Source: Bryobacteraceae bacterium (lineage in GTDB: Bacteria > Acidobacteriota > Terriglobia > Bryobacterales > Bryobacteraceae). From it: 33,476 bases of DNA. Shown here one piece after another: positions 8,269 to 30,211 of this stretch. The stretch spans positions 1 through 33,476 of the forward strand of contig JASHQT010000102.1 in assembly GCA_030039005.1 (NCBI GenBank). The letters run 5' to 3'. A program made the translations under genes and the position numbers. The notes beneath the pieces were generated by a model. The model was given only the letters and a program-made list of their open reading frames with translations. It searched no databases and was not told the origin of the DNA. Numbering within the stretch: position 1 is the first letter of the stretch; each line of letters begins with the position of its first letter.

Positions 8269-8277
8269 GCGATTTCT

Positions 8278-8559: not shown

Positions 8560-9299
8560 GCGACCTCGGGACGGAACGCCCCTGGCGGCGGCCAGCCGGG
8601 TTCCACGTAAGCGAAATACAGCGCGTCCAATTGGGCCCAAAGGATGTCGCACTTTGCCCGCAACGCACCGATCGCGAGTTCCTGTTCCGCGCGCGTGTGG
8701 GTATTTTCCTTTACCCAATTCAGGGCGAAGTTCGCATCTTCGGGCGCCTGTGAAAGGCGGGATTCAAAATAGCCTAAGCTCGACGCGAGGTAGGGATAGT
8801 GCGCCAGCATCCGATCCATGCGCAAAGAGATCAGGTTCTTGGAAAACATCTCCGTCAGCGAAGATGCCACGGATTCGATAAAGGAGTGTTTGCTGACCAA
8901 GGCCGAATACGCGTCCACGGCGTAACGCACCGCCGGGAGGACGCCCACTTCTGAAACCACCAGATCGCGAGAGAGCCCGGTGGCTTCCGCCAGCTTAATC
9001 CATTTTTCGATCCCGCCCGGTGTGCCAGGTTCGCCATCGTGATCGACGATGCGCTTGCGCCAGGCGCGGCGGAACTCGGGCGAATCGCTGCGCGCGAGGA
9101 TCAATGCATCTTTGATCGGAATGGTTTTTTGATAGTAATACCGATTGAATGCCCAAGCCTGAAGTTGGCCCCGCGTTAGCTTCCCTTCGTGCATCAGGCG
9201 GTGAAACGGGTGCAGGTGATGATAGCGCTCCTCGCCGACGGCGCGCAGCTTCTCTTCCAACGCCCCAGGGCTCAGTACGGCCTCTTGCGTTGAGATCAT
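8556..9299 (-). CDS. pqqC: PqqC, pyrroloquinoline-quinone synthase
   Basis: PqqC is the cofactor-free oxidase that performs the last ring closure and oxidation to PQQ. The 247-residue protein has the family length and an all-helical pattern. Recognisable blocks are AFNRYYYQKTIPIKDA, RIVDHDGEPGTPGG (containing the active-site His region), SLTEMFSKNLISLR, and KCDILWAQLDALYFAY near the end. Both its start and its stop overlap neighbouring pqq genes by ATGA, so B, C and D are probably translated in a coupled manner. Confidence 0.97.
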   Translation of the reverse strand: MISTQEAVLSPGALEEKLRAVGEERYHHLHPFHRLMHEGKLTRGQLQAWAFNRYYYQKTIPIKDALILARSDSPEFRRAWRKRIVDHDGEPGTPGGIEKWIKLAEATGLSRDLVVSEVGVLPAVRYAVDAYSALVSKHSFIESVASSLTEMFSKNLISLRMDRMLAHYPYLASSLGYFESRLSQAPEDANFALNWVKENTHTRAEQELAIGALRAKCDILWAQLDALYFAYVEPGWPPPGAFRPEVA

Positions 9300-15756: not shown

Positions 15757-15821
15757 GGGTTCACCTCCTTGTTGAGTGTACCTCTGGAGGCTCAATCGAG
15801 CTTCTTTGGGGCCGGTGTGAG

Positions 15822-16148
15822 TTACTTGTGGACCAGGTAGGCGACAATCGCCGCGAGATCCGCGTTCGAAATTTCCGTCTTGCGGAAGCGGGGCATGAAG
15901 TTCGTCCCATGGCGCACGGCCGTTTCGATTGTTTCGGCGGTCAGATCGGTGCGTTCTTCCAGGACCGCGGGCTTCACGCCGTGTGCGGCGATGGCGCTCG
16001 TTCCCGGCTTTCCCAGCCCCGTTCCATGACAAGGCGTGCACCACTTCTGGTAGACCTCCCGGCCGCGGTCCGCTGGAGGCTGATTTTGCGCAAATGCGGG
16101 AAGGGTGATCGGCGCCAGCAGAACCACCACGAGCCGTACGCTCTTCAT
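15822..16148 (-). CDS. Periplasmic c-type cytochrome, electron acceptor of the adjacent flavoprotein
   Basis: This 108-residue protein has a signal peptide (cleavage after PAFA, residue 20), one haem-attachment motif C37-TP-C40-H41 and a likely axial Met85 in NFMPRFR. Its size and the F-M-P-x-[FR] block fit the small cytochrome subunit that takes electrons from p-cresol methylhydroxylase-like flavoproteins. Its ATG overlaps the end of the flavoprotein gene by four bases, as expected for two subunits made together. Confidence 0.9.
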   Translation of the reverse strand: MKSVRLVVVLLAPITLPAFAQNQPPADRGREVYQKWCTPCHGTGLGKPGTSAIAAHGVKPAVLEERTDLTAETIETAVRHGTNFMPRFRKTEISNADLAAIVAYLVHK

Positions 16149-17728
16149 GCGCGCGCCTTCCGCATGTGCTTCGGCCAGATGCCGCTCTTGCCGGGCGCCA
16201 GAATGCCATTGGGATCGAGGGCATCTTTGAGCGTTTCGTGCAGCCGCAGCAGCGCATGATGATTGAACGAATAGGTATTGGCCACGTCGTCCATAAACGC
16301 CAAATGCGTGCGATATTCGCCCCAGCCGTGCTCACCCCCCACCTCCACCAGGCGCTTAAAGGCCGCACGCATCTTGCGGTTCTTTTCCACGTCGTGTTCG
16401 ATGCGGAACGTGAACAGGAAGAAGAAGGAGCGGGGATAGTAGGTGCCGGCGATCACCGAAGGCACGTTGTCGATGCCCATTTCGTTCATGACCTTGTCGA
16501 ACACGTCCATCATTTCGAACACCGCTTCGCCGGTCATCGGCGTGATCGGCGAAAAATCGATATGGCCATAGCTACTCGGCAAGAGCGCGGAAAAGATAGC
16601 CAGACTGGGCACGCCGAGCGGCACCGGGTTGGCCACTTTTGCCAGGTCTTCGGGACTCGGCGGCAGCTTGTTCGATGCGCCATCGCGAAATTGCACGCCG
16701 GGGATCGCGGAAAACTTCCTCTTGGCAAACGCCCACTGCGCCGGCACTACTTCGGTGGGCCCGTAAAATGGCAACTCGATGCTCCAGTAGGGAAGATTCT
16801 TCCCCCGCAGATAATCTTCCAGCTCCGCTATGCTGGCTCCGCCCGGTTTGGAGCGCAGCGCGATCAGCTCCGAATCGCGGGCACGCGCTCTTAGCGAACT
16901 GGCGACGCTCGTCGTGCCTAGAACGATGTTCGAATTCATCAGGTACGCGAGCGTGTCCACCATGGGAATCAGATCGTCATGTTTCGGCACGCTGACGACG
17001 CCGGTGAAGCGCATTTCCGGCATGGGGTAAAGCCACACGCCCATTTTGGTGACGATTCCAAAGTTGGACTGCGTGAAGATCCCATCCACGTACGGTCCGA
17101 AGCCATACTTGTATTGCTGCCAGGTGCGCGAATTGGGAAGCGCACCCATTCCCGTGCGCACCACGTCGCCATTGGCCAGCACCACCTCCATGCCGCACAG
17201 CGTCGAAAAGTGATCGCGCAGCGGAGTATGCCCGCCGCCGCGATCCAGCGTGTTCCCCACCGGGCTTCCCCAGCCGGGATCGGGCGCATCGATGAACACG
17301 TTCAGACCTTTTTCCTGGATGTACCGGTAGAGATCGAAGTAACTCACGCCCGGTTCGACGAGCGCGTAGTGATTTCGGTCGTTTACTTCCAGAACGCGGT
17401 TCATCCGCTTCAAATCGAGAACTACGGAGCCCGAAAGCCGCGGCGCGGAACCACCGTACGCCAGATTCTTGCCGGTGGAAACCGTCCACAAAGGAACCTT
17501 ATATTTATTGGCAATCCGAACGATCTGCTGGATCTGTTCGACGCCGTCGGGGGCAACCGCAGCCGAAGGCACCGGATCTTCCGGTTCGTGCCAGAACGGC
17601 GAATACGAATCGCGATATAGTTCGACGTCTTCGTCGGACGAAAAAACCCATTCCTTACCGACCACGCCTTCGAACTGGCGAAGGGCGGTTTGGAAGTCGC
17701 TGGCGCTGACGCCTGGAGGAAGCGGCAT
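16145..17728 (-). CDS. FAD-dependent 4-alkylphenol oxidase/hydroxylase (PCMH/VAO family flavoprotein)
   Basis: The protein belongs to the vanillyl-alcohol-oxidase/p-cresol-methylhydroxylase flavoenzymes, which oxidise para-alkyl phenols such as cresol or eugenol through a quinone methide. I start it at ATG 17728 (AGGAG seven bases upstream), giving 527 residues. The FAD-binding half shows PLWTVSTGKNLAYGG, GNTLDRGGGHTPLRDH, MEVVLANGDVVRTGMGALP and FTQSNFGIVTKMGVWLYP. The C-terminal half ends in EHGWGEYRTHLAFMD and ALDPNGILAPGKSGIWP, both typical of this family. The adjoining cytochrome c argues for a dehydrogenase/hydroxylase rather than an oxygen-using oxidase. I could not decide which residue would bind FAD covalently. 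Confidence 0.92.
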   Translation of the reverse strand: MPLPPGVSASDFQTALRQFEGVVGKEWVFSSDEDVELYRDSYSPFWHEPEDPVPSAAVAPDGVEQIQQIVRIANKYKVPLWTVSTGKNLAYGGSAPRLSGSVVLDLKRMNRVLEVNDRNHYALVEPGVSYFDLYRYIQEKGLNVFIDAPDPGWGSPVGNTLDRGGGHTPLRDHFSTLCGMEVVLANGDVVRTGMGALPNSRTWQQYKYGFGPYVDGIFTQSNFGIVTKMGVWLYPMPEMRFTGVVSVPKHDDLIPMVDTLAYLMNSNIVLGTTSVASSLRARARDSELIALRSKPGGASIAELEDYLRGKNLPYWSIELPFYGPTEVVPAQWAFAKRKFSAIPGVQFRDGASNKLPPSPEDLAKVANPVPLGVPSLAIFSALLPSSYGHIDFSPITPMTGEAVFEMMDVFDKVMNEMGIDNVPSVIAGTYYPRSFFFLFTFRIEHDVEKNRKMRAAFKRLVEVGGEHGWGEYRTHLAFMDDVANTYSFNHHALLRLHETLKDALDPNGILAPGKSGIWPKHMRKARA

Positions 17729-17784
17729 GAATGCTCCTGAATCGGCCAGTATACACCGCGAGGAAGCAAGCCACTGCACAAGGC

Positions 17785-18375: not shown

Positions 18376-19239
18376 ATGCACTCGATGCACGGGCTCAATC
18401 GCAGCAAGGTTTTCGGCATGGCGACAATGTTTGCGGCAGCTTCGGGCCTATGGGCTCAGTGGCCGGCGTACCCCACTCCGGGGGTTCCAAGAACCGCTGC
18501 TGGAAAGCCGGACCTGACGGCGCCTCCACCCAGGACTCCGGACGGCAAGCCAAATTTCTCGGGGATCTGGAGATTCGTCGACAGTCCCGATGCGCGGCCC
18601 GGCCCACCAACTCCCGCGCAGGCGAGATCTTTCGGCATCGGCTTGCGGGTTCCGGGGCTGATTCAGTTTTTTGATATCGGGTCGACGCTCAAGGACGGTC
18701 TGCCGTTCCAACCATGGGCCGCGGAGCTCCGGCGCCAACGGGTTGCGCGGAACAACCAGGATAATCCCGACGCCCATTGTTTGCCCATCGGTTTAATGCA
18801 ATTGCACACGCATCCGGAACCGAGGAAAATCATCCAGACGCCTGGATTGATCGTCATTTTGTATGAAGCGAACGCCGGCATCCGGCAGATCTTCACTGAT
18901 GGGCGGTCATTGCCCGGCAATGACGCGGAACCCTGGTGGTTCGGCTACTCGATCGGCAAGTGGGACGGAGACACGCTGGTGGTAGAGACCAAAGGATTCC
19001 GGGATGATGTCTGGCTGGATGTCGAGGGCAGCCCGCTCACGGAATCGGGAAGAATGACGGAGAGGTTTCGCCGGATCAATTACGGGACCATGGAAATCGA
19101 GATCACCGTCGATGATCCGAAAGCCTATACCAAGCCCTGGACTGTCAAAGTGATACATCGCATTATGCTCGACACCGAATTAATAGAGTTCGTGTGCCAG
19201 GAAAATGAACGAGATGTGCAACACATGACCGGCCACTAA
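18376..19239 (+). CDS. Secreted two-cysteine paralog 1 (unnamed family)
   Basis: From ATG 18376 the product has 287 residues. A TTG at 18340 and an ATG at 18385 are alternatives, and no good ribosome site decides. A signal peptide (ending near GLWAQ) is followed by the family pattern: PDGKPNFSGIW (G-x-W at 63-65), a Cys block AHCLPIG (C135), KIIQTPGLIVILYE, TDGR, GKWDGDTLVVET, MTERF, TVDDPKAYTKPW, and a terminal FVCQENERD (C274). The mature protein has only these two cysteines. I cannot name a function. It is closest to paralog 7 at 24481-25257, sharing the opening P-G-x-P-R-T-A-x-G-K-x-D-L. It heads a same-strand group of four genes. Confidence 0.8.
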   Translation: MHSMHGLNRSKVFGMATMFAAASGLWAQWPAYPTPGVPRTAAGKPDLTAPPPRTPDGKPNFSGIWRFVDSPDARPGPPTPAQARSFGIGLRVPGLIQFFDIGSTLKDGLPFQPWAAELRRQRVARNNQDNPDAHCLPIGLMQLHTHPEPRKIIQTPGLIVILYEANAGIRQIFTDGRSLPGNDAEPWWFGYSIGKWDGDTLVVETKGFRDDVWLDVEGSPLTESGRMTERFRRINYGTMEIEITVDDPKAYTKPWTVKVIHRIMLDTELIEFVCQENERDVQHMTGH

Positions 19240-19355
19240 CCTTACTATGGCTGGCTCGGACCACACTGCGGCTCAATCCTCGCTCGAGATGCTCCCCCGC
19301 TCGCACCACTTTGCCAGCAATCTGGTATAGAATCTCCCCCCAGGAGACCTCACGT

Positions 19356-20183
19356 ATGTCTTTTCTTCGGCGGAACGCGATGGCGCTGCTCGCGACGGCC
19401 GTTTTCCTCTTGACCGCGGCGGCTGGTTTCAGCCAAACTTCCAGCAGAACAGCGACGCGGACAACCGCCCAAATTCCCCGTATGCGGGATGGCAAGCCCA
19501 ATTTCACCGGCCTTTGGCAGGCGCTCGGCACGGCCGACTGGGACATCAAGCCGCACTACGCCCACGCTGGTCCGTTCTTCCAGCTTGGCGCGGAAGGCGC
19601 GGAGCCGGCCGGGGCGGGAATCGTCGAAGGCGACGTCATTCCGTACACGCCCGAAGCAGCGGAGAAAGCGAAGGAAAATCTTGCCAATCGCATGAAGCTC
19701 GATCCCGAGGTCAAGTGCTACATGCCTGGCATTCCACGCGCGAATTACCTGCCGTTCCCATTCCAGATCGTGCAGGGCAACAAAGACATCGCATTCGCTT
19801 ACGAATATGCGACGTCGAATCGCGCCGTCAACATGGGCCAGTTCCGCGAAGGGCAGGTCGACACTTGGATGGGCACCTCCAACGGCCATTGGGAAGGCGA
19901 CACGCTGGTCATCGATGTCAGCAGCCTCAACGGGAGCAGTTGGTACGATCGCGTGGGCGACTTCCAAACCGAAAACACTCACGTGGTGGAACGCTTCACG
20001 CTGTCCGACGCCGACCACATTGACTACGAGGCCGCGATTGAGGATAAAAGCATATATACCCGGCCCTGGAAGATTTCGACGGTGTTTTACAGGCGCAAGG
20101 AAAAGAACGCGCAGCTCAATGAGTTCAAGTGCGTGGAATTCGCCGAGGAGTTAATCTACGGAGACTTGAGAAAGAAGAAGTAG
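19356..20183 (+). CDS. Secreted two-cysteine paralog 2
   Basis: I start at ATG 19356 (AGGAG ten bases upstream, then signal peptide MSFLRRNAMALLATAVFLL), giving 275 residues. The family marks are RDGKPNFTGLW, C121 in VKCYMPGIPR, FQIVQGNKDIAFAYEY, GHWEGDTLVIDV, VVERF, a D-K-x-x-Y-T-R-P-W form of the usual D-P-x-x-Y block, and C259 in EFKCVEF. The two cysteines are 138 residues apart and are the only ones in the mature chain. It lacks the D-G-R block of the other members. The C-terminus is basic (DLRKKK). It lies 116 bases after paralog 1 and 98 bases before paralog 3. Function unknown. Confidence 0.8.
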   Translation: MSFLRRNAMALLATAVFLLTAAAGFSQTSSRTATRTTAQIPRMRDGKPNFTGLWQALGTADWDIKPHYAHAGPFFQLGAEGAEPAGAGIVEGDVIPYTPEAAEKAKENLANRMKLDPEVKCYMPGIPRANYLPFPFQIVQGNKDIAFAYEYATSNRAVNMGQFREGQVDTWMGTSNGHWEGDTLVIDVSSLNGSSWYDRVGDFQTENTHVVERFTLSDADHIDYEAAIEDKSIYTRPWKISTVFYRRKEKNAQLNEFKCVEFAEELIYGDLRKKK

Positions 20184-20281
20184 GTTTGAGCGCACAGCGC
20201 CGGGACGCGCTCGATGTAATCGGTGGAAGCTCGCGCCCGGTTGCGTTGCGCGCGATTACTGGACAGTAAGGAGGAGATCGT

Positions 20282-21322
20282 ATGAGATTGTTTCGCATTG
20301 CCGTGATGCTCATGCCCGCCGGTATAGCGCTGCTCGGGGCCGCGTCCGCGCTCGCACAGTCAGCGCCGCATGCACTTCCCACCGCACCGAAGAACTGGGT
20401 GCAGCCCGAAACGCCCTGGGGCGATCCGGATATCCAAGGCACCTGGACCAGCGACGACTGCATCGGCACGCCGATGAACCGTCCCGCCACTTTCGGCGAC
20501 CGCGCGTCTCTCACCGATCAGGAGCTGGCGGAGCGTATGAAGCGCCTCGAGCAGCAGCATGAGGGCGATCTGAAACAAACGGTCGATGCAAATCAACGCG
20601 TGGGCACTGGCCCGCCGGGCAACTGGGGCGAACGCGCGCGGCGTCCTTGCACCCAGACGTCGCTGGTCGTCGACCCGCCCAACGGCCGCATGCCCGATCT
20701 GCTGCCGGAAGCAAAGACGCGTCCCGTCCCCGAGGGCGCGGGCAACAATAATCCAAAAGCCGATTCGTGGGAGGATTTTAGCTGGTACATTCGCTGCATC
20801 ACCCGCGGAGTGACCGGTTCCATCCTGCCGGTGATTTACGGCAACGGCCAGCAGATCATTCAAGGGCCGGGCTATGTGACCATCCTGGAGGAGATGGTGC
20901 ATGAAGCCCGCGTGATTCCCCTGGACGGACGTCCGCATGAAAGTTCAGAGGTTCGTTCTTACATGGGCGATGCGCGCGGCCACTGGGAGGGGAACACCTT
21001 GGTGGTGGAAACCACCAATTTTCTCGGTGGGCGTACGGGCATCGGCCTGAATGGCGGCGGAACGCCGACGTCGGAAGCGTTAAAGCTGACCGAGCGGTTT
21101 ACGCGCATCAGCCCGGACGAAATGAAATATGAAGTGACGGTGGATGATCCGAAGACTTACGTGCAGCCGTTCAAAATCGCGTTCCCGCTGACACAGGAAG
21201 ACGGCTATCAGAACTTTGAGTATGCCTGCCACGAAGGAAACTATGCGATGTTCGATTCGTTGAGCGGCGCGCGCGCCAAGGAGAAAGCGGCTGCCGCCAA
21301 AGCCGCGGAGAAAGGTCAGTGA
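20282..21322 (+). CDS. Secreted paralog 3, longer form with four cysteines
   Basis: The 346-residue protein has AGGAGG before its ATG and a clear signal peptide (ending ASALAQ). It carries G-x-W in PDIQGTWTSDDC, then an inserted stretch of about 70 residues compared with the others. The family core follows: C172 in IRCITRG, IIQGPGYVTILEE, LDGRPHE, GHWEGNTLVVETTNF, LTERF, TVDDPKTYVQPF and C316 in EYACHEG. Two extra cysteines (C60 and C123) lie in the N-terminal half and could form a second disulfide. The tail is Ala/Lys-rich. A DUF6152-type gene starts 14 bases downstream, so the two are almost certainly co-transcribed. Confidence 0.82.
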   Translation: MRLFRIAVMLMPAGIALLGAASALAQSAPHALPTAPKNWVQPETPWGDPDIQGTWTSDDCIGTPMNRPATFGDRASLTDQELAERMKRLEQQHEGDLKQTVDANQRVGTGPPGNWGERARRPCTQTSLVVDPPNGRMPDLLPEAKTRPVPEGAGNNNPKADSWEDFSWYIRCITRGVTGSILPVIYGNGQQIIQGPGYVTILEEMVHEARVIPLDGRPHESSEVRSYMGDARGHWEGNTLVVETTNFLGGRTGIGLNGGGTPTSEALKLTERFTRISPDEMKYEVTVDDPKTYVQPFKIAFPLTQEDGYQNFEYACHEGNYAMFDSLSGARAKEKAAAAKAAEKGQ

Positions 21323-21336
21323 GCGAGGAGATGGAT

Positions 21337-21759
21337 ATGAAGAAAGCATTATTGGTTCTGGCTACCGCTGGTCTAGCACTGCTTGCCGCCGCGCCCGCAC
21401 GGGCCCATCATGCATTCGCGGCGGAGTTCGATGCCGACAAGCCGGTCAAGTTGAAAGGCACGGTGACGAAAATGGAGTGGATCAATCCGCACGCCTGGAT
21501 CCATATCGACGTCAAGGACGAGGACGGCACAGTGACGAGCTGGATGATCGAAGCCGCCGCGCCGAATTCGCTCCTTCGCCGCGGGTGGAACAAGAATTCG
21601 CTGCCGGCTGGAACCGAGATTCTGATCGAAGGCTTCCAGGCGAAGGATCAATCGCACCGCGCGAACGGCAGCGTGATTACGTTCACCGACGGCAGGAAGC
21701 TATTTGTCGGCAATGCGGCTGGAGATCCGGGAGCTGCGCCCAGCGCGCCGAAGCAGTAG
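21337..21759 (+). CDS. Small secreted DUF6152-type protein
   Basis: From ATG 21337 the product has 140 residues. GAGGAG sits directly before an earlier in-frame ATG at 21331 and at proper distance for 21337. A signal peptide runs to APARA, so the predicted mature N-terminus is His24-His25 (HHAFAAEFD). The DUF6152 pattern follows: PVKLKGTVTKMEWINPHAWIHIDVKDEDG, a W-x-I-E strand, LLRRGWNKNSL, and a final GRKLFVG. It is beta-rich and looks like a small OB-type fold. Its function is not established to my knowledge. It follows paralog 3 by 14 bases and ends a plus-strand cluster 77 bases from the converging minus-strand cluster. Confidence 0.85.
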   Translation: MKKALLVLATAGLALLAAAPARAHHAFAAEFDADKPVKLKGTVTKMEWINPHAWIHIDVKDEDGTVTSWMIEAAAPNSLLRRGWNKNSLPAGTEILIEGFQAKDQSHRANGSVITFTDGRKLFVGNAAGDPGAAPSAPKQ

Positions 21760-21836
21760 GAGATCCCGGGCCGCGGGGGCGATCCCGGTTTTCCGCTGGA
21801 GCAGTTCTGCCGGCTTCCCATTAGGGATGTAGCGCG

Positions 21837-22682
21837 CTACTTACCGGCAGCAGCTTGCACCATTTTCTTGCGATACTCCGGATAAAGCGTTTCGGGCATT
21901 CCGACGGCCGCGTCGCGGGGAACCCCATACTTTTTGGTCATCTCATTGACGAATGGATTCTTTTCGGGCAGGTAATGCGGAGCCGTAGACCCCACGCTGC
22001 CTTCATACGCGGTGATGCACGGCGGCCCGATGGGCGGCTGAGGCGTCGCGCTCAGTTGGAAGCTCCTCGATAGGATCCAGGGTTCCGCAAGATAAATCGG
22101 ATCCTGGATGAACTCGAGTATCGTCAGGATGTCGCCGTGACGGTAAAAGCGCATGGTCACAGTGGCTTCATCGCTCGAGGGCGCGCCCGTTTTTCGCAAA
22201 AAACCGGCCTTCATATGCGTAGTGTACGTGACCAGTGTATTGCCCTCCCAAGTCCCCGTGGTGAAGCCGGAGCGCGTGTGCAAGGCATATTCGGACGGGT
22301 GCGGGCGCCCGTCCATCCAGATCGTCATGGGCGCGCGGTCCTCCCACGCTCCGATCGTGTAGGAAATCACGTTGCCTTTCAGCGGATCTGTTTCGCTCCA
22401 GATTTTCAGGCCGAATGGTCCTTGGACCAAATAGAACGCAGGCCAACCTTGGCATTGATGTTCCGGCATCTCGAATTGCGACTCGGAATAGCTCAACGCT
22501 CGAATTCTGCCTTCCTCGCTCAGGGGGATTCCCGTGAAGTCAACCGGCAGCCCGTCGCCGGTCAGGAACTCGTGGTTTCGCGGCGTCCAGGAGCCCGTCA
22601 GTTCCACCTGCGCGAAAACGGGTGCGCACAACAACAGGCACGCGCAAACGGTTGCGACAACCGGAGCGGGTGAACGGCTCAT
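21837..22682 (-). CDS. Secreted two-cysteine paralog 4
   Basis: I take ATG 22682, which overlaps the stop of the preceding gene by ATGA. Two in-frame ATGs lie slightly upstream at 22694 and 22709. The 281-residue product has a Cys-containing signal peptide ending APVFAQ, then LTGSW (29-32), C77 in EHQCQGW, MDGRPHPSEY, GTWEGNTLVTYT, a TMRF version of T-E-R-F, QDPIYLAEPW, and C222 in GPPCITAYEG. A further 59 residues after the second cysteine are unique to this member. It is closest to paralog 5, sharing the G-[FY]-L-R-K-[TN]-G-[AV]-P block. Function unknown. It is last in a minus-strand operon. Confidence 0.78.
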   Translation of the reverse strand: MSRSPAPVVATVCACLLLCAPVFAQVELTGSWTPRNHEFLTGDGLPVDFTGIPLSEEGRIRALSYSESQFEMPEHQCQGWPAFYLVQGPFGLKIWSETDPLKGNVISYTIGAWEDRAPMTIWMDGRPHPSEYALHTRSGFTTGTWEGNTLVTYTTHMKAGFLRKTGAPSSDEATVTMRFYRHGDILTILEFIQDPIYLAEPWILSRSFQLSATPQPPIGPPCITAYEGSVGSTAPHYLPEKNPFVNEMTKKYGVPRDAAVGMPETLYPEYRKKMVQAAAGK

Positions 22683-23395
22683 TTTGCGGTGCATGGCGTG
22701 GGATCCCATTTCGAACCGTCGGCCTCCTTCTTGAATTGCGAGCTCACCGTGAAGGGCTGCCGGAGATATTGCGGATCGTCGACGATGGTGGTCACCAGCA
22801 GCACCTGGCCGCCGCCCGGGTTCGGTGCGACATCAAAATACTCGGTGACGATCGCGTTCTCACTGTAGGGAACGCCATTCTTGCGCAAATATCCGGAGAG
22901 CAAGTTTTTGGTTACCACTTTGAGCGATGCCGGTTGCTCCCACTGCGCGGTGGAATCACCTTGCCATGTTCGCTTACCCGGCGCCGGAGAATTGAAATGC
23001 AAGAGCCGCGTCTGCATGCCGTAATCGCTGTCGATTCGCAGCGTGTCATCGCCGGCCCAGGTAATGTGAAATCGTGACGCCAGGCGCATGATGGCGCCCG
23101 CGCCGTACGCCTTGCATTGATTGCCGGCCGCTTCGTCCGCCGCGGGATCCCACGCATCGGCCACCTTGCGCGCCTGTTCCGTCATGGGGACGGCTTGATA
23201 GTCGCCTTTGCGAGGGGTAATCATCCGGAAACGCCAGTCTTCCGACACGAAAGCGACCCAATAACCGGTGATATCGACAGGCGCGGCGGCTTTGGCCGTA
23301 TTGGGAGCCGCCGGCGAGCCGCGATCCTGGCCGTTTGCATACGGCACGGCGCAGAGCAGCAGCGTAAGAGGGACGGCGAGCAGATACAGCTTCAT
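22679..23395 (-). CDS. Secreted two-cysteine paralog 5, divergent member
   Basis: The start is ATG 23395, which overlaps the stop of the metallo-beta-lactamase-fold gene (ATGA). The open frame upstream of it is a shadow of that gene. The product has 238 residues with signal peptide MKLYLLAVPLTLLLCAVPYA. It has ITGYW (42-46), C94 in GNQCKAYG, GYLRKNGVPYSENAIVTEYF, TIVDDPQYLRQPF, and C235 three residues from the end. The G-x-W-x-G-D-T-L-V block is degenerate here (AQWEQPASLKV), so this is the most altered paralog. It still keeps both cysteines, 141 residues apart. Confidence 0.78.
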   Translation of the reverse strand: MKLYLLAVPLTLLLCAVPYANGQDRGSPAAPNTAKAAAPVDITGYWVAFVSEDWRFRMITPRKGDYQAVPMTEQARKVADAWDPAADEAAGNQCKAYGAGAIMRLASRFHITWAGDDTLRIDSDYGMQTRLLHFNSPAPGKRTWQGDSTAQWEQPASLKVVTKNLLSGYLRKNGVPYSENAIVTEYFDVAPNPGGGQVLLVTTIVDDPQYLRQPFTVSSQFKKEADGSKWDPTPCTAK

Positions 23396-24405
23396 TGCGC
23401 TTTCTCGTTCATGCTGAGATACACTGCTTCGACGAAATCGTTCGTGGTCCAGGGGCCGGTGTCCGAACCGTAGCGGCGTATATAGCCTCGCGCGGGCGAT
23501 GCCGCTTTGATCTGTTCCAGCGTGAGCCCCTGTTTCATCAAATCGCGGACGCGGTCGCGAATGATGGTCACCATATCGCGATAGTCCACGACGTCGAGCT
23601 GATCGCATATGCGGCCGTGGCCCGGAATGATTAGCGTGCCCTCCTCGCGCGAGACGATCGGTACCGATGGGATCGCGGTATCCACCAGCTTCTGCAAGGC
23701 TGCGATTTCGCCTGGAATGCTTCCGCCCTTGGCGACGTTGATCACGGGAAATCGTCTGGTATCGAAGACCTCACCGGCTACGACAACATCGGAACGTCGA
23801 AAGAAGACGATGGCATCGCCATCGGTGTGTGCTGCCGGCTCGTGGAAAATTTCGATGCCTTCTCCGTTGAGGTACATGTATTTTCGGGCTTGGTTGAACG
23901 TCTCGGTTGGCCACGCCTCGACCGGGAAAGGCGAGGGCTTCCCGGTTGGCCCGCTCATTCTCGCTAGCACCTGCTCGGCCGAAAGGATGGATGCCCCGCC
24001 ACCCAGAAAGTTTGTAGCCAGTCCCGCCCCGCCGTTCCCGGTAAACAACGTCTGTCCGGCCTTGGCGACGATAGCGTTGCCGCCGACATGATCCGGGTCG
24101 GCGCTGGTGTTGATGATGTAGCGGATGGGTTTGGCCGTGATTTTTTTGATTGCCGCCACGACAGCATCCGCGCTCTCCACAGTACCGGAGTCGACCACTA
24201 CGACGCCATCCGCTCCCACCTGCACGCCAATATTGCCGCCCGCACCCGCGATCATAAAGAAGTTAGGGCGCAGTTCCAGCACTTCCAGATTCGCGGCTCG
24301 AGCTGGCTGTGCCAGCACGCCGCTGAAAGTGATGATGGCGGCAGCCGCTACCGCGAGCACACGCGGGATGCAAAGCTCATCGCAGGATCGGCCGGAAACC
24401 AGCAT
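23392..24405 (-). CDS. Secreted metallo-beta-lactamase-fold protein with altered metal motif
   Basis: The 337-residue protein has an N-terminal hydrophobic signal (about 14-38, ending QPARAA) and the metallo-beta-lactamase fold. It keeps NIGVQVGADGVVVVDSG, then S101-A-D103-P-D105-H106-VGGN where active members have H-x-H-x-D-H, then H193 (AAHTDGD), GEVFD and H263 (PGHG). Two of the first three histidine-type ligands are therefore missing, leaving at most a reduced metal site. It sits between paralogs 7 and 5 in one minus-strand run and overlaps the latter by ATGA, so it probably serves the same process. Hydrolase activity is doubtful. A binding or redox role is possible. Confidence 0.82.
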   Translation of the reverse strand: MLVSGRSCDELCIPRVLAVAAAAIITFSGVLAQPARAANLEVLELRPNFFMIAGAGGNIGVQVGADGVVVVDSGTVESADAVVAAIKKITAKPIRYIINTSADPDHVGGNAIVAKAGQTLFTGNGGAGLATNFLGGGASILSAEQVLARMSGPTGKPSPFPVEAWPTETFNQARKYMYLNGEGIEIFHEPAAHTDGDAIVFFRRSDVVVAGEVFDTRRFPVINVAKGGSIPGEIAALQKLVDTAIPSVPIVSREEGTLIIPGHGRICDQLDVVDYRDMVTIIRDRVRDLMKQGLTLEQIKAASPARGYIRRYGSDTGPWTTNDFVEAVYLSMNEKAQ

Positions 24406-24480
24406 AGGTCTCGAACGATTGTATTCCAGTGGCGGCAGGCGCGAAACCGCGGCGGCAGACCGGGTCCGGGACGCCGTCGC

Positions 24481-25257
24481 TTACTTGCCCTCGTGCACCT
24501 CGTCACGCTCGTTCTCGCAATAGGTCTCGATGAGATCCGTATCCGCGAGTAGATGGAAAGGCACTGACGCTCGCCAGGGCTTCTCGTACGCACCGGGGTC
24601 GTCGATCGTGATGTCAATGTCCATGTGCCCGAAATCGCGCCGGGTGAAGCGCTCGGTCACGTATCCGCGGTCGGTCTGCGGATGGCCTTTCGCCGTATCC
24701 ACCCACGTCCTGCCGTTGAATCCGGTGGTTTCCACCACCAGCGTTCCGCCGTCCCAGCGGCCGACCGAGTAGCCCAGCCACGTTGGCTGCGGATCTTTGG
24801 GCCACGCCCGGCCGTCCAAGAACACCTGCCGAAACGTCGAATTCGTGGAGGTCTCGTACAGCAGAACCACCAGCGCCGGCGTCTGCACGATCTTCATGGG
24901 ATGCGGCGCGTTCCCCGTGGTCATGTCGATGCGCGGAACCCCAGGCGGCATGCAGTGGTTCAGGGGATCGTCCCGATGGTCCCTCGCCTCGCGCTCGGCC
25001 TGCAGATTCTTCGCCCAGGGCAACATGGCCAATTCGCCCGGCTTCAGGTCCTTTCCGAGGTCGTTGAAGTATTGCAAGCCGCTCTCCCAGACTCCGGACA
25101 AATCGGGGCGTCCGTCCGGCGCCTTGGGTGCGGGAGCGGAGAGGTCCACCTTGCCGTCCGCTGTGCGCGGAGCTCCCGGGGTGCGATAGTTCAGCCACTG
25201 CGCGCCCGAGTGCGTGCTCGCAACCAAGATCGCCGCGGCGACAATCAAAAGTTTCAT
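24481..25257 (-). CDS. Secreted two-cysteine paralog 7
   Basis: The start is ATG 25257, where a signal peptide begins (MKLLIVAAAILVASTHSGAQ). The frame is open a further 207 bases upstream, but that stretch does not look like a secreted protein. The 258-residue product shows APDGRPDLSGVW, C102 in NHCMPPGVPR, MKIVQTPALVVLLYET, LDGRAW, GYSVGRWDGGTLVVETTGF, VTERF, TIDDPGAYEKPW and C247 in ETYCENERDEVH. These are the only two cysteines. It resembles paralog 1 most. It starts the minus-strand run that continues, after 75 bases, with the metallo-beta-lactamase-fold gene. Function unknown. Confidence 0.82.
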   Translation of the reverse strand: MKLLIVAAAILVASTHSGAQWLNYRTPGAPRTADGKVDLSAPAPKAPDGRPDLSGVWESGLQYFNDLGKDLKPGELAMLPWAKNLQAEREARDHRDDPLNHCMPPGVPRIDMTTGNAPHPMKIVQTPALVVLLYETSTNSTFRQVFLDGRAWPKDPQPTWLGYSVGRWDGGTLVVETTGFNGRTWVDTAKGHPQTDRGYVTERFTRRDFGHMDIDITIDDPGAYEKPWRASVPFHLLADTDLIETYCENERDEVHEGK

Positions 25258-25571
25258 AGCGTCATTCCGGCCGCAAATGCGGAGGCTCCACCGCGCCCCT
25301 GCCTGGAGCGGGTGACGAGTCTCCGGCCGCGACCCTGCTCTCATCGAGCGACTGCCCTGCGCGACGAGCTCTTTGATCGTCACGCGCTTTGCCTCCGTAA
25401 CGCTGAGGCGCTTCCCGATGCCATACTCCAGACGGGCGGACGAGGCCGGACGGAATTTAATCATCTGCTCAGTTTAATCGGGCGATGGAACCGAGGCAAG
25501 CCAATACTTGGAGGCCGGAATCCATTACCGCCGTCGACCTTTGCGTCCCTCGAGGCTAATCTGAAACGGAG
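25258..25571. other. Intergenic region between divergent genes
   Basis: These 314 bases separate paralog 7 (minus) from the VOC protein (plus). A minus-strand frame stays open to 25464 in phase with paralog 7. It has no convincing ribosome site, and the conserved part of paralog 7 begins only at its internal signal peptide, so I treat it as leader. No promoter consensus, terminator or RNA gene was recognised. Confidence 0.4.
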
Positions 25572-26027
25572 ATGGTCATTAAATACGTACATGTGAACTT
25601 GGTAGCGCGGGACTGGCAACGTTTAGCCGCATTTTATGAGGATGCGCTTGGATGCAGGCGCATTTTACCCGAGCGCGATCTGGCAGGCGAGTCCATTGAA
25701 CGTGGTACGGGTGTTTCCGGCGCGCACATCCGGGGAGTTCATCTGCTTTTGCCAGGCTATGACGAGAACGGCCCAACCTTGGAGCTTTTTCAATATTCGG
25801 AGATGCAGGATTCTCCGCAGCCGGTAGCCAACCGGGCTGGGTTTGGGCACCTGGCGTTTGCGGTGGAGGACGTTGCGGCGGCCCGAGCGGCAATCCTCGC
25901 CCGTGGCGGATCGGTGCTTGGCAGCATTGAGAGCGTGAATGTTCCGGGAGTCGGCGTAATCACGTGGACCTATGTGCGGGATCCAGAAGGTAACATTATT
26001 GAGCTTCAGCACCGCACGGGCCTCTAA
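25572..26027 (+). CDS. VOC-family (glyoxalase/bleomycin-resistance fold) metalloprotein
   Basis: The 151-residue cytoplasmic protein is a vicinal-oxygen-chelate fold with two beta-alpha-beta-beta-beta halves. The four metal ligands expected for active members are present: H7 (KYVHVNL), E71 (TLELFQYS), H93 (GFGHLAF) and E144 (IIELQH). It also keeps FYEDALGCRR and DPEGNIIEL. It could be a lactoylglutathione-lyase-like enzyme, an epimerase or a small dioxygenase. The sequence does not decide which. It stands alone between the secreted-paralog cluster and a decayed segment. The ATG at 25572 is preceded by GGAGATGGTC-type sequence and is the only start that keeps the first ligand. Confidence 0.85.
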   Translation: MVIKYVHVNLVARDWQRLAAFYEDALGCRRILPERDLAGESIERGTGVSGAHIRGVHLLLPGYDENGPTLELFQYSEMQDSPQPVANRAGFGHLAFAVEDVAAARAAILARGGSVLGSIESVNVPGVGVITWTYVRDPEGNIIELQHRTGL

Positions 26028-26058
26028 GACCGTCGCCCGGCACATAACGCGCCGCGCG

Positions 26059-26620
26059 CTAGAAAGAAAGCCGCAAGCTGAGCTCCGCCGATCGCGATCC
26101 ACCCGCCTGAAACAGCGGCGGCATGCCCGTATTCGGCGACCCGGTTCCCAGCATCAGATTTTGCATCGATGTCGACTGGCCGATCCACGGGCTCGATAAG
26201 AACGCCACCGGATCGGCGAATTGCGGGTGGTTGAGCACATTGAAAATATTCAGACCCGCGTCCATCTCCATCCGCGAAACAAAACGAAGCTGCGCCGCAG
26301 AGTGGCATCGATCTGCGTTAGGCCATTTCCATAAGTCGCGTTACGCCCGAGCGTCCCCGATTCGCCGGAAACCGATGCGCTAAACGCCGCCGGATTCAAT
26401 CGCCGCCCGCCCGCCGCAGTGGGATCGCTGATCCAGATCGGCTGCCCCGCCACCAGGTTCGGCCGGTCGGCATTGTCGAATTCCTCGCCTATGGCCTGCT
26501 CGTCATCCGTGACGTTGATCGGAAACCCGCTGCGCACGCGAAGAATCCCGCTTACCGTCCATGCGGCCGACCAATCCGGCAGGCTGTGCGAGCGATACCG
26601 ACATCAATCTCGTGACCGTG
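26059..26620 (-). pseudogene. Remnant of a TonB-dependent (Oar-like) outer-membrane receptor, frameshifted
   Basis: On the minus strand two frames together reproduce the C-terminal end of an acidobacterial TonB-dependent receptor. The upstream piece reads SLPDWSAAWTVSGILRVRSGFPINV and runs through RPNLVAGQPIW and NGLTQIDATLRRSF to a stop at 26250. The downstream piece, in another frame, begins near 26285 with MEMDAGLNIFNVLNHPQFADP and ends SLRLSF, a typical barrel-closing C-terminus. The switch near 26272-26285 is a frameshift, and a further in-frame stop appears near 26610. The N-terminal plug and most of the barrel are missing. This is a dead fragment of a protein normally about 1000 residues long. 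Confidence 0.8.
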
Positions 26621-26659
26621 CTGCTCGGCGTCACGTTCTGAGCTTCACGAGCCACGCCC

Positions 26660-27283
26660 TTGAGCATCCGGCGCAGTGCGCTGCTGATTGCAGCCATCTT
26701 TGTGAGCATTGCGATTCTCGTCTCCACCATTCGCCCTCTCTCGCTGGACAAGATTCTGCAACTGATCGAAAGACGCCAGCGTTCCGCGATGCGCCTGATC
26801 CTGGGTGTCCGCCAAACCCCCGGGGCAGCGCCTCTCGGGTATCTGGTTCAGCAAAGCGCCCTGCGGATCACTGGATATTCCACGCTTCTCGCCTGTCTCC
26901 CCTCGGCGCTGTTTGAAGCAGCCGCTGTGTTCTTTGTGGCGCTCATCGCATGCCAGTGCGGTCTGAAGAGGCCGTGGTGCGCAGCCGTGATTTTCGCTGG
27001 GTTCCCGCAAACGCTGCGCTATGCGGCAGAGTCCCGTACTTATGCGCAAGCGCTGTTCTTTCCGGTGCTAGGAACCTACCTCTACTTGCGCATGGCCAGG
27101 AGTCCAACGCAGGCCGCCGCGGGGCGGTATTGCTTAGCCCTAACGTTAGCCGTCTACACGCAGAATTGCGATCCATACCGTCGGGCGCCAATTGGAGCGA
27201 GAGTTTCTGGCTACGAGCCGATACTATGCCGAGATGAGGTGTTCGTAGGCACATTCTCGTCGGCGTGGCCGGTCGACCGATAG
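26660..27283 (+). pseudogene. Truncated GT39-like membrane glycosyltransferase fragment
   Basis: The frame encodes about 207 residues. Only the first 165 or so look like protein: a first transmembrane helix (SALLIAAIFVSIAILVSTI), an SLDKI block where intact relatives have Asp-Glu, then GAAPLGYLVQQSALRITG and further helices. These fit the N-terminal part of the ArnT/PMT (GT39) type, normally 450 or more residues. After AVYTQ (about 27170) the frame loses hydrophobic character, while another frame reads QLEREFLATSRYYAEM to a stop near 27248, so a frameshift or deletion is likely. The only starts are TTG 26660 or later, without a ribosome site. I call it a gene remnant, next to the receptor remnant. 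Confidence 0.65.
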
Positions 27284-27430
27284 CCGCACTCTATCGGCTC
27301 ACCCGCTGCACAGGCATCTGCCGACATGTTGCATGCGATGGCGCCGAGAATTGAGCGCAAGGCGATCTTCGTTTGCACCGACAGGATGCCGCGATTCAGC
27401 AGCAAGCCAATACCGGCAAGTAACTCCGGT

Positions 27431-28228
27431 TCATTGCCTGCCTTCTTGATCAGCATCCTCGCAGATGTACTCGAACATTTCGCCGCCGGCGATCCACGAT
27501 GAACTCGTCTTTTGATTGATACTCCAACGCACAGACCAAGGTTGGGTGTACGCGCCGGGATCGTCGATCGTCGCTTCGTAGTTGAGCGTCTTGAGATTGG
27601 GGCGTGAAAAGCGCTCGGTCAGGTGCAACCGCCGGGTGGTGGGGTACGCTCCGGCGATCCACTGCTTTTCATTGAAGCCGACGGTATCGATCACCAGAGT
27701 GTCCCCGTCCCAGTGGCCGATGGAATGGCCCAAGAAAGTCAGCCGAAGGTTTTCCCTCGACGGATGGGGACGCCCGTCCATATAGACCACCCGCCAGGAA
27801 TGCGGGCCGGCGATATTGAGGATGAAGATCCGCTTGAGCTCGGGCGCATCCACGATTTCGAAGCCAGGCGCGTTGAAAAACGAAGGGCCTCCGGCGGGCT
27901 TGCAAGCCACTAGCGGCGGGTACAGATCCCGCTTTGAAATCCGGTATTGATACAGTGCTTTCGCCCACAGCTGGAAGGGCACATCCGCTGCACGGGGCCC
28001 TCCGCCGAGGCCCGGCCGCACTTCCCAATACCCTTTTTGTTCGGAGGTGGATCCTAAATTCGGGTGGCCGTCAGGAAAGCGCGGGGTCGCCAGATCCCCG
28101 GACGCGCTGTTCGCGGGCTTCGCCTGCGCGAACGTAAGCACCGGCAGCACAATCCACGCCGCCATGGGGACCATCGAAATTTTCGGGGCGCGGCGTGCCT
28201 GCGCCCGCTTCAGGTGTAGGAGCGGCAC
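27431..28228 (-). CDS. Secreted two-cysteine paralog 8
   Basis: I place the start at GTG 28228, two bases after the preceding DUF6152-type gene stops, with a partial GAGA-type ribosome site. ATG 28174 or 28165 would also keep the signal peptide (MVPMAAWIVLPVLTFAQA). From the GTG there are 265 residues. The family pattern reads FPDGHPNLG, KGYW, C109 in VACKPAGGPSFF, FEIVDAPELKRIFIL, MDGRPHPSRE, GHWDGDTLVIDTVGFNEKQW, LTERFSRPNLKTL, TIDDPGAYTQPW and C256 in EYICEDADQEG. It is clearly closest to the C-terminal half of the fusion protein at 28681-29793, with nearly identical spacing. Function unknown. Confidence 0.8.
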   Translation of the reverse strand: MPLLHLKRAQARRAPKISMVPMAAWIVLPVLTFAQAKPANSASGDLATPRFPDGHPNLGSTSEQKGYWEVRPGLGGGPRAADVPFQLWAKALYQYRISKRDLYPPLVACKPAGGPSFFNAPGFEIVDAPELKRIFILNIAGPHSWRVVYMDGRPHPSRENLRLTFLGHSIGHWDGDTLVIDTVGFNEKQWIAGAYPTTRRLHLTERFSRPNLKTLNYEATIDDPGAYTQPWSVRWSINQKTSSSWIAGGEMFEYICEDADQEGRQ

Positions 28229-28230
28229 GG

Positions 28231-28635
28231 CTATCTCATGACCAGCTTTTGGCCGCTCGCCGAAATCATGGAGGTGCTGGGCATGGAGCCCGCGCCGTTG
28301 CTGCCATCCTTGGCTCTCGCGGCGTTCTCCACGGTAACCTTGTCGCCGATCTTCACGGTGTCGTGCTTCCAACCGCCGCGAACAAGCGCGTACGGAGGCC
28401 CCATCTCGATCTTGTAGCTGCGCACCGTGCCGTCTGGATCCTTCGAATCGATATAAACAAAGGCGTGCGGATTCACCCAATCCAGCTTGGTCACGATCCC
28501 GGTGATGGTCACCGGTTTGGTCTCGTCGTACTCCGCATCGAAGGAATGATGCGCGAACGCCGGAGCGGCCGTCAGAATCAGCAGACCGATGGCTGCGAAT
28601 AAACTGGCCCTGGAACTAAGTTTGCTGAGCGTCAT
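28231..28635 (-). CDS. Small secreted DUF6152-type protein, second copy
   Basis: The 134-residue product has AGGAGG ten bases before its ATG. Its signal peptide ends TAAPAFA, so cleavage would expose His29-His30 (HHSFDAEYD), exactly as in the copy at 21337. The core reads PVTITGIVTKLDWVNPHAFVYIDSKDPDG, then VRSYKIEMG, ALVRGGWKHDTVKIGDKVTVE. It sits between the fusion protein (45 bases upstream) and paralog 8 (two bases downstream). In this cluster too, therefore, a DUF6152-type protein is encoded with the two-cysteine family. Confidence 0.85.
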   Translation of the reverse strand: MTLSKLSSRASLFAAIGLLILTAAPAFAHHSFDAEYDETKPVTITGIVTKLDWVNPHAFVYIDSKDPDGTVRSYKIEMGPPYALVRGGWKHDTVKIGDKVTVENAARAKDGSNGAGSMPSTSMISASGQKLVMR

Positions 28636-28680
28636 CGCCGTTCTGCCTCCTATTGCTCATTAGACATGCTTTCGATTGGC

Positions 28681-29793
28681 TTAGCGGATGAACTCGGACT
28701 CCACGTTCTCCTCGCAGAAGTATTCGGGAAGGTCTTTATCCGCGACCCACTGGATCGTCCAACCTGCTTTCCACGGACGAGTGTACGTCCGCGGATCGTC
28801 CACCGTGACCTCGTATTTCAATGTGTTCAGGTTGGGCCGCGAAAAGCGTTCGGTCAAATGAAGAGCGCTGGTATGCGGAAGGCCTCCTCCGCTCAACCAG
28901 AAGCGCTCATTGTACCCGACCGAATCTACCACCAGCGTGTCTTTCTCCCAATGGCCGACCGACGTGCCGTAGTAACCCAGAACGGCCTCCGCACTCTGGG
29001 CTACCGGCCGCCCATCGGTGTAGATGATGCGCCAATTCCGATCGCCGCCGCCCAGCAACACCAGAATGCGGCCCAACTGGCGCTGTTCCACGAACTCGAA
29101 TCCGGGAGGACTCTGAAACTGGCGCGGGCCGCCAGGGGGAATGCAGTGCGCCATGGGATCGTCTTTCAGCAGCGTGCGTTGCCTGTACTCATACAGGGCC
29201 TTGGCCCAAGGTTGGAACGGCGCCACGCGGCCGGCGTCAGCCAGGTTGAGCAACAGGCCATCCTCGTTCATCGGAATCTTGCGGCCCGTATACTCAAACA
29301 ATGTTTTCTCGCTCGCGACGCCCCAGTAGCCTGTTCTACCGGGCGGAGGCCCCAGGCGGATCTGTCCGTCCGGCCAGTGCGGAGTGGGAGCGGCAGCCGG
29401 CCCGGCCTTTTGCGCCGCTCGCGGAGTGAACAATCGCTCGTTCGTACGGACCAGCACCACGGATTTCGCGAAAGCCTGGCTGGCATTTCCTCTCGCTGGG
29501 AATCCCTGCACCGCGACGACATCGCCGATCTTGAGGGAATCGCGCCTCCATCCCTCGGCCTCCAGCTCCAGGGGATTGCCGAACTCGACCGCCCAAGTCC
29601 CCACAATTCCGGCTTCATCCCGGACGTCGATGAACAAATAAGCATGCGGATTCACCCATGCAATGCGTGTGACCGGCCCCTGGAGCGTCACCTGCCGGCT
29701 GGAATCGTAGACGGCCGTGAAAGACTCCTGAGCGAACGCCACCGAGCCGGCGCAAGCCAACCCGATCAGGATTCCAGAGTATACGCGCTTCAT
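28681..29793 (-). CDS. Fusion of a DUF6152-type domain with the two-cysteine family
   Basis: From ATG 29793 the product has 370 residues: signal peptide (ending AFAQ), a DUF6152-type domain (about 23-125: ESFTAVYD, VTRIAWVNPHAYLFIDVRDEAG, GWRRDSLKIGDVVAV), and an Ala/Pro linker (about 126-140). A complete two-cysteine module follows: TGYW at 154-157, C217 in AHCIPPGGPR, TDGRPVAQ, VGHWEKDTLVVDSVGYNERFW, LTERFSRPNLNTLKYEVTVDDPRTYTRPW and C360 in EYFCEEN. The DUF6152 part has lost the leading His-His (QES). Elsewhere in the window these two modules are separate neighbouring genes, so the fusion suggests they act together. No stop or frameshift interrupts the junction. Confidence 0.87.
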   Translation of the reverse strand: MKRVYSGILIGLACAGSVAFAQESFTAVYDSSRQVTLQGPVTRIAWVNPHAYLFIDVRDEAGIVGTWAVEFGNPLELEAEGWRRDSLKIGDVVAVQGFPARGNASQAFAKSVVLVRTNERLFTPRAAQKAGPAAAPTPHWPDGQIRLGPPPGRTGYWGVASEKTLFEYTGRKIPMNEDGLLLNLADAGRVAPFQPWAKALYEYRQRTLLKDDPMAHCIPPGGPRQFQSPPGFEFVEQRQLGRILVLLGGGDRNWRIIYTDGRPVAQSAEAVLGYYGTSVGHWEKDTLVVDSVGYNERFWLSGGGLPHTSALHLTERFSRPNLNTLKYEVTVDDPRTYTRPWKAGWTIQWVADKDLPEYFCEENVESEFIR

Positions 29794-29812
29794 GACTGCT
29801 TGCCCTAATCTC

Positions 29813-30211
29813 TTAATCTCTCTCAATCGCGAAGTCGCCTTGCTTTTCACCCTGGCGCCAGGTCCCCACGATCTTTCGATGGGGCGAGCTCAAATCCTGG
29901 AGCCTGCCTTCGGCCACGATGTGAACCAGATTGCCGGCGGCATCCTTGGTGTCGGCTTGGATGCGGACGGTCCAGGTGGCGACATCGAGATAGATGCTTT
30001 TGATGGGGATCGCATCGGGTCCGGGATTGATCGTGCCCGTGAGATTGTCGCCGTCCCAGTCCATCACGATGGTCAGATGATGCCGCTCGGTTGCCGTCAC
30101 ACCATTGTCCCCAGCCCAGGTGCCCGTCAGCGGATGCCCCTCCTGTGCTAATCCCGAAAGGGCGGCGCTTAGACACAACCCGCAAACCCAAACGAGAGCT
30201 CGACTCCGCAT
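29813..30211 (-). CDS. Small secreted G-x-W beta-rich protein
   Basis: The 132-residue protein has GGAGG just before its ATG and a signal peptide (MRSRALVWVCGLCLSAALSGLAQ). The mature part opens HPLTGTWAGDNG and continues with alternating strands (HHLTIVMDWDGDNLTGTINPG, KSIYLDVATWTVRIQADTKD, KIVGTWRQGEKQGDFAIERD). The repeated G-T-W blocks and the size suggest a small beta-barrel. I do not recognise a named family. It starts the minus-strand run that leads into the fusion protein (19 bases), the second DUF6152-type gene and paralog 8. A weak TACAAT -10-like hexamer lies about 55 bases upstream. Confidence 0.75.
   Translation of the reverse strand: MRSRALVWVCGLCLSAALSGLAQEGHPLTGTWAGDNGVTATERHHLTIVMDWDGDNLTGTINPGPDAIPIKSIYLDVATWTVRIQADTKDAAGNLVHIVAEGRLQDLSSPHRKIVGTWRQGEKQGDFAIERD

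Follow-up and report, generated by a model that had tools for sequence, protein, structure and literature searches.

An undescribed, highly multiplied secreted protein family co-occurs with DUF6152 and DUF6644 proteins

The stretch of DNA analyzed here (the window; all 33,476 nucleotides of contig JASHQT010000102.1, Bryobacteraceae bacterium assembly GCA_030039005.1) encodes eight diverged copies (g18, g19, g20, g21, g22, g24, g27, and g28) of a secreted two-cysteine protein family, for which we use the working name FAM. FAM co-occurs and co-locates with the secreted protein DUF6152, usually with a pair of DUF6644 membrane proteins and in some loci with a cytochrome c'-like lipoprotein, while a separate branch of the family (the copies at 21837 and 22679) pairs or is fused with a metallo-beta-lactamase (MBL)-fold protein. 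It is very probable that FAM and these partners belong to one undescribed cell-envelope module, perhaps concerned with copper or electrons. To the mechanistic proposal set out below we give, as a whole, a probability of about 0.3.

Two phylum-wide draws of genomes carry the association. Among 149 genomes of the host phylum, FAM was patchy but large where present and occurred in 13; 12 of these 13 had DUF6152, and it was these 12 that had DUF6644. Among 121 Gemmatimonadota (G012 included), FAM was present in 28, DUF6152 in 29, and DUF6644 in 30 (three of them borderline, at 27.1 to 27.8 bits against a cut-off of 27), and all three were present in 27; neither DUF6152 nor DUF6644 was found in any of 14 control genomes. 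Fisher tests of FAM against DUF6152 gave tiny P values, which are inflated by the kinship of the genomes, and the FAM profile was scored on 17 to 21 candidates per genome (13 in one search), so that weak copies may be missed. The genes are also close together: in the Gemmatimonadota, a listed FAM place was no more than 1 kb away from 32 of 37 DUF6152 places, and in 25 of the 28 genomes a region reaching 12 kb to each side of a DUF6152 contained at least two FAM and at least two DUF6644. Exactly two FAM, one DUF6152, and two DUF6644 were present in 13 of the 28, and two to four FAM copies in 23.

The association extends to more distant genomes and to plasmids. DUF6152 lay within four genes of FAM in 16 and DUF6644 in 15 of 20 distant loci, which were chosen because FAM was present and whose genes came from a simple caller (it missed FAM genes of L142 that the profile search had listed and mis-started the DUF6152 of L156). 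On Sphingomonadales plasmids, FAM was found in eight records; three plasmid loci (L160, L161, and L163) have FAM, DUF6152, and a DUF6644 pair, and a fourth (L162) has one FAM gene and two DUF6152. Adjacency was quantified in Bryobacterales bacterium palsa_144 (G001), a relative with an 84% match to g24 and itself among the 149 genomes, in a sample of 1.194 Mb whose contigs were taken because FAM copies lie on them. DUF6152 adjoins FAM there in 11 of 12 cases and lies within two genes of it in all 12, against 1.26 and 2.08 under a rotation null, and none of 5,000 rotations reached the observed values; DUF6644 lies within two genes of FAM in four of four cases (P = 0.015). The totals for G001 are many to few: at least 129 FAM, at least 31 DUF6152, and 15 DUF6644. 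At one place (C12:379918-383271), two FAM with an N-terminal extension that reads as immunoglobulin (Ig)-like stand beside DUF6152 and two DUF6644.

DUF6152 (PF19649) has a distinctive N terminus. In all 36 proteins from G001 and the distant and plasmid loci, the hydrophobic stretch is directly followed by Ala-His-His, and histidine as the first mature residue is predicted from this position. A further 19 proteins, from 79 relative loci and the window, include 16 with Ala-His-His and one with Gly-His-His; the other two are the L043 protein and a fusion in the window, considered below. An NPH-type histidine, the geometry of which is putative, is present in every protein of both sets, 36 and 19 in number (35 of the 36 were aligned). 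In profile comparison, DUF6152 resembles CcmE (PF03100) across 111 to 123 columns, with a score of 32.8 to 36.4 and a probability of 50 to 70%, against at most 19.5 for 60 column shuffles and at most 2.1% for control pairs, which suggests a likeness at the level of the fold only. CcmE carries a C-terminal haem-binding motif, His/Cys-x-x-x-Tyr. DUF6152 differs from it in leaving that motif unmatched, in a signal that looks cleavable, and in an end that is usually His-His.

DUF6644, of about 150 to 190 residues, has one histidine and one tryptophan that are each conserved in 39 of 39 proteins. Its profile resembles that of CopD with a score of 34.2 to 36.5 and a probability of 70 to 78%, against at most 16.6 for 60 shuffles. 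A comparison with HemJ (UPF0093) was dropped, matches occurring in 5 of 60 genomes and none above cut-off. The third partner, a small protein with a C-terminal CxxCH motif, is weakly cytochrome c'-like (best score 25.7 bits, cut-off 26.5) and is present in 8 of the 20 distant loci and in L160.

In the window, the copies lie in three same-strand runs, two of which meet at a convergent gap (21760-21836), as an earlier reading made from the sequence only had proposed. The first run (18376-21759, plus strand) contains g18 (18376-19239; QW type, with neither a DUF6152 nor an MBL neighbor), g19 (19356-20183; A type, clustering with Acidobacteriota and Gemmatimonadota module genes), g20 (20282-21322; B type, 346 residues), and a stand-alone DUF6152 (21319-21759; E = 1e-34, 118.7 bits; likely start ATG 21337). 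The second (25257 to 21837, minus strand), in which the last joints overlap, is opened by g24 (24481-25257; QW type) and continues with an MBL-fold gene (23392-24405; PF00753, E = 7e-11), g22 (22679-23395), and g21 (21837-22694). The third (30211 to 27431, minus strand) consists of a small predicted secreted protein of 132 residues (29813-30211), a candidate module member upstream of g28; a fusion of an N-terminal DUF6152 with g28 (28681-29793; E = 6e-26, 90.8 bits); a second stand-alone DUF6152 (28231-28635; E = 2e-29, 102 bits); and g27 (27431-28228; start GTG 28228 or ATG 28174). All three DUF6152 occurrences exceed the cut-off of 27 bits, and both stand-alone proteins have a predicted mature His-His end. 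The sequence-only reading had overlooked these DUF6152 occurrences and the MBL gene, as well as DUF6644. The density it had stressed, eight copies in 12 kb, is high and yet not unique: L029 has nine within 12 kb, and the other loci, among the 79 and the G001 sample, have at most five.

The eight open reading frames (ORFs) are all present and all homologous by BLAST, some being linked only via others. Every copy has at least one partner among the eight at an E value of about 2e-10 or better (search space fixed at 5e6), and some pairs are not significant taken alone; the most distant copy, g22, is linked via g21 (about 1e-10) and g20 (about 1e-5). That they form one family was also indicated by a hidden Markov model (HMM) of the eight, which matched at least 7,947 of 7,998 candidates at E ≤ 1e-3. 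Identity is 45% between g18 and g24 and 43% between g27 and g28, and the description of the copies as too diverged for recent duplicates holds, though g27 and g28 are mutual sisters (Shimodaira-Hasegawa-like approximate likelihood ratio support, 100). The motif pattern given earlier was nearly right. D-G-R is missing from g19 and g22 and from these two only, as had been claimed; T-E-R-F is changed in g21 and g22; and the D-P block is changed in g19 and differently spaced in g21 and g22. In the GxW-[DE]-G-[DN]-TLV block, g28 has K for G and g24 has GG, two changes that had gone unlisted, and in g22 the block is unrecognizable. Searching all six frames of the window for a loose form of this block gives 8 occurrences, whereas 200 shuffles gave a mean of 0.035. 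Signal peptides had been assigned to all eight, and a simple rule finds their features in seven; g27 fails from ATG 28174, where the hydrophobic stretch lacks a preceding basic residue, one being gained only from GTG 28228, which is the start that the gene caller selected.

Database comparisons support the novelty of the family. Among the eight window ORFs, Pfam matched only the DUF6152 half of the g28 fusion and NCBIfam gave one match (E = 0.019), under its cut-off; on 38 aligned members, Pfam gave only two stray matches (E = 0.09 and 0.29). No solute-binding Pfam domain was found on the window ORFs or the 38 members, no enzyme family of Pfam or NCBIfam matched FAM, and PDB sequences included no relative (best E, 0.13 with a single sequence and 1.3 with a profile). 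The best 120 matches each to g24 and g20 have no Pfam domain and are named "hypothetical protein." In an alignment of 59 of 84 proteins (25 of at least 330 residues, including the B type and Ig and MBL fusions, were excluded), the two cysteines are each conserved in 57 of 59, and three charged residues are near-invariant: R314 (57 of 59), E412 (56 of 59), and D434 (54 of 59). Amphipathic periodicity is beta-like in 128 of 201 windows, which is weak evidence. An early G-x-W within a beta-like pattern is a hallmark of lipocalins and is found in FAM; unlike lipocalins, FAM does not match the Lipocalin_2 profile (PF08212, 10 lipocalin rows; probability 0.1%), and at the level of this profile comparison the lipocalin reading was rejected. 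Literature searches, which did not extend to supplementary tables, found neither DUF6152 nor DUF6644 named in any paper, and term searches for such an expansion, with the same limit, found no description of FAM among the papers listed.

The sequence-only reading of a dense, secreted, multicopy system was, if anything, an understatement. Searches at E ≤ 1e-3 gave at least 7,929 matches to g24 (7,999 candidates scored) and at least 7,999 to g20 (all 7,999 scored). FAM was present in all of 18 relative genomes, which were picked because they have close FAM relatives: 17 had from 43 to at least 145 matches and the other had 9, and at least 100 were found in 13 of the 18. The G001 sample contains 42 FAM copies among 1,072 called genes (3.9%), a count that was stable through three HMM rounds; scaling to 6.7 Mb gives about 236 copies, which is too high if the sampled contigs are copy-rich. 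By single linkage, the largest cluster in the sample has 48 to 49 genes, including all 42 FAM, and the next has 13; other groups include TonB receptors (17 with an iterated HMM) and DUF6152 (12). FAM is thus the largest family in the sample, exceeding the apparent kinase, TonB receptor, and ABC transporter clusters. Large numbers were also found under two labels that may be misleading: a metagenome-assembled genome (MAG) labeled Bordetella parapertussis (L073), drawn in the same phylum as G001, has 86 FAM matches and is probably mislabeled, and a MAG labeled Acidimicrobiia (L043) has 103 scored matches in 4.2 Mb, which is unexpected for the label and may reflect misnaming. Large shares of paralogues are reported for soil Acidobacteria (in part of PMC5900883), and general paralogy is described for Solibacter, with other groups named (in part of Challacombe et al., PMC3174227).

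A quick tree, built from 83 of the 85 rows because L159_9 and L158_18 were too short, resolves several branches, and the window holds every branch type in it. Window copies mostly cluster with copies of other genomes and not with each other, the exception being the g27/g28 pair (support 100). The MBL-coupled branch, containing g21 and g22, has a support of 100; its 14 rows are all from the window and G001, and 13 adjoin or are fused to MBL. The B type (g20) and A type (g19) have supports of 97 and 95, and the QW type (g18 and g24) is grouped weakly (81). The tree requires 16 changes of neighbor label, whereas shuffled labels require 35.7 (as few as 16 in 0 of 200 shuffles). The earlier suggestion that each copy handles a different partner survives at the level of branches only: one branch is associated with MBL, several with DUF6152, and one mostly with neither. 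The alternative offered with it, that copies assemble together, is suggested indirectly by chains with two FAM domains (P0121 and P0127), by the fusion of a g22-type with a QW-type copy in P0130, and by paired FAM genes in 13 of the 20 distant loci. Four of thirteen listed proteins of at least 480 residues were inspected; P0124 is possibly two genes read through as one.

MBL proteins of this type adjoin FAM in five of seven cases in the G001 sample (null expectation, 0.63; P = 0.0002), and five further cases in G001 are single-chain FAM-MBL fusions, including fusions to g21-type copies, which the g21-g22-MBL run of the window mirrors. In NCBIfam, the MBL partner comes closest to the quinoprotein relay zinc metallohydrolase model (TIGR04559), although its 82.9 bits are far under the cut-off of 280. 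The 79 loci suggested quinoproteins, cytochromes c, and TonB receptors as general partners, but these are unenriched in G001, adjoining FAM in 1 of 8, 0 of 7, and 0 of 17 cases. Amidohydrolases may be a further partner: the cluster is present in 9 of the 79 loci, and in 8 of these it lies no more than 1.5 kb from FAM, while a query with a different amidohydrolase, from G001, found only two in the sample there, neither adjacent to FAM.

Elsewhere in the window, pqqE, pqqC, and pqqB (7168-10204) score above NCBIfam cut-offs, and a small ORF (8278-8508) is a candidate pqqD by position; the window genes scanned included no identifiable quinoprotein. An RPE65/lignostilbene-type oxygenase and a flavin adenine dinucleotide (FAD) oxidase share one run (14311-17779) with a small cytochrome c recognized by eye (15822-16148); the run presumably resembles 4-alkylphenol oxidation by a flavocytochrome. 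Between the second and third FAM clusters, two short frames (26059-26537) read by eye like the C terminus of an Oar-like TonB receptor and are perhaps a gene remnant.

We propose that DUF6152 may be an oligonucleotide/oligosaccharide-binding (OB)-fold protein in which copper would be held by the mature N-terminal His-His and the NPH histidine, and that copper (or electrons) may be exchanged between it and the CopD-like DUF6644 pair, the cytochrome c'-like protein being a possible redox partner. FAM proteins would be disulfide-closed periplasmic partners, the diversification of which would set specificity for a ligand or a client, and many copies could share few membrane units. The module itself is shown by computation; we infer the metal, the path of the electrons, and what FAM does. 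The closest precedent is Bacillus subtilis YcnI (DUF1775), which is secreted, has a conserved histidine as its mature N terminus, and works with the CopC-CopD protein YcnJ in copper handling (according to the portions available of PMC8424229 and PMC12362106). The DUF6152-DUF6644 layout is alike in that a secreted protein with a predicted mature N-terminal histidine is encoded with a CopD-type membrane protein. It differs in that the profile likeness of DUF6152 is to CcmE, DUF6644 falls below the CopD cut-off, and the copper role is putative; further, the same portions of PMC8424229 and PMC12362106 mention no FAM-like protein. The proposed chemistry, if right, would resemble that of the CopC/CopD kind. 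A copper or redox role for DUF6152 and DUF6644 is put forward tentatively and is ranked first because of the CcmE-like and histidine features, the CopD-like DUF6644, and the YcnI/YcnJ precedent; that FAM may be an exchangeable specificity partner has a chance not far short of even. Carried furthest, the proposal would describe a copper-dependent envelope machine of soil bacteria, with a His-brace DUF6152 on an OB fold, and a CopD-like DUF6644 pair that would move copper or electrons together with cytochrome c', in which at least 100 secreted FAM paralogues per genome would be exchangeable specificity subunits, each presenting different compounds to this oxidizing or uptake system. In that complete form we regard it as distinctly doubtful.

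Several observations weigh against the proposal as a whole. First, the DUF6152 half of the window fusion keeps NPH and lacks His-His, and in the L043 protein His-His is not clearly readable; the whole is placed at about 0.3 because of this fused protein and because it cannot exceed its parts. Second, the alignment with CcmE takes in the signal or anchor region, which may inflate the score, and the C-terminal haem motif is unmatched in the hhalign alignment; in genomes, the CopD HMM (PF05425, cut-off 32.1 bits) reached only 23.9 and 23.2 bits at two DUF6644 places. Third, no histidine is conserved in 80% of the 59 aligned FAM members, and FAM is no obvious copper protein. Fourth, 19 of the 42 FAM in the G001 sample have no adjoining DUF6152 or MBL, including all 10 of the QW type (by a text rule); DUF6644 directly adjoins FAM in only two of four cases there (P = 0.10), and none was found among the window genes scanned. 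Finally, co-occurrence has exceptions (G098 has one FAM and neither DUF; G012 has FAM and DUF6152 but no DUF6644; G256 has both DUFs and G167 and G189 borderline DUF6644 where FAM is absent), and several positive genomes look closely related, giving fewer independent events than the counts.

Three other explanations were considered. FAM proteins could be periplasmic enzymes, each for another soil compound (an aromatic, lactone, or terpenoid), with partners that feed or clear the reaction. The near-invariant R314, E412, and D434 of the shorter members, the pairing and fusion with MBL, and the oxidative catabolic neighbors in the window (the oxygenase, the FAD oxidase with its small cytochrome c, and the PQQ genes) would fit such a role; yet FAM matches no enzyme family in either database, neighbors differ among loci, and quinoproteins, cytochromes c, and TonB receptors are unenriched beside FAM in G001, and we consider this explanation rather unlikely. 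In other soil bacteria, expanded orphan solute-binding proteins of the tripartite tricarboxylate transporter (TTT)/Bug type have few membrane partners, and FAM could similarly comprise exported binding proteins for uptake or signaling, with DUF6152 and DUF6644 as a shared, metal-free membrane end. The ratio of FAM to membrane units in G001 is consistent with this, as are the TonB receptors near all four Sphingomonadales loci (annotated in L161 and L162; read by eye in L160 and L163, where the TonB HMM did not label them). There is precedent for very many exported paralogues in one bacterium, with 434 solute-binding proteins in one genome (in part of PMC5994714). Unlike TTT/Bug proteins, FAM has no Pfam match, to a binding-protein domain or otherwise, and has unrelated partners, ligand binding by FAM being hypothetical; DUF6644 matches no known transporter beyond the weak similarity to CopD, and the near-invariant His-His and NPH of DUF6152 would need another reason. 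We judge it about as improbable as an enzymatic role. Largely redundant drift, with many copies (ecoparalogues) of an unremarkable secreted family being retained and no machine in common, would suit the gene order around the g24 orthologue in L001 (84%), where within 11 kb, the orthologue itself aside, only a second FAM copy reaches at least 45% identity to window genes, and the general paralogy of these large genomes (in part of PMC3174227), but is very improbable given the near-perfect co-occurrence of FAM, DUF6152, and DUF6644 in two phylum draws, the exact 2:1:2 composition in Gemmatimonadota, and the branch-specific partners.

Whatever its chemistry, 3.9% of the sampled Bryobacterales genes in G001 belong to a family with no Pfam or NCBIfam model and no PDB sequence relative. 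Linking FAM with DUF6152 and DUF6644 makes three unknowns one testable unit, and the two-FAM unit of many Gemmatimonadota and the Sphingomonadales plasmid copies are simpler cases in which to test it.

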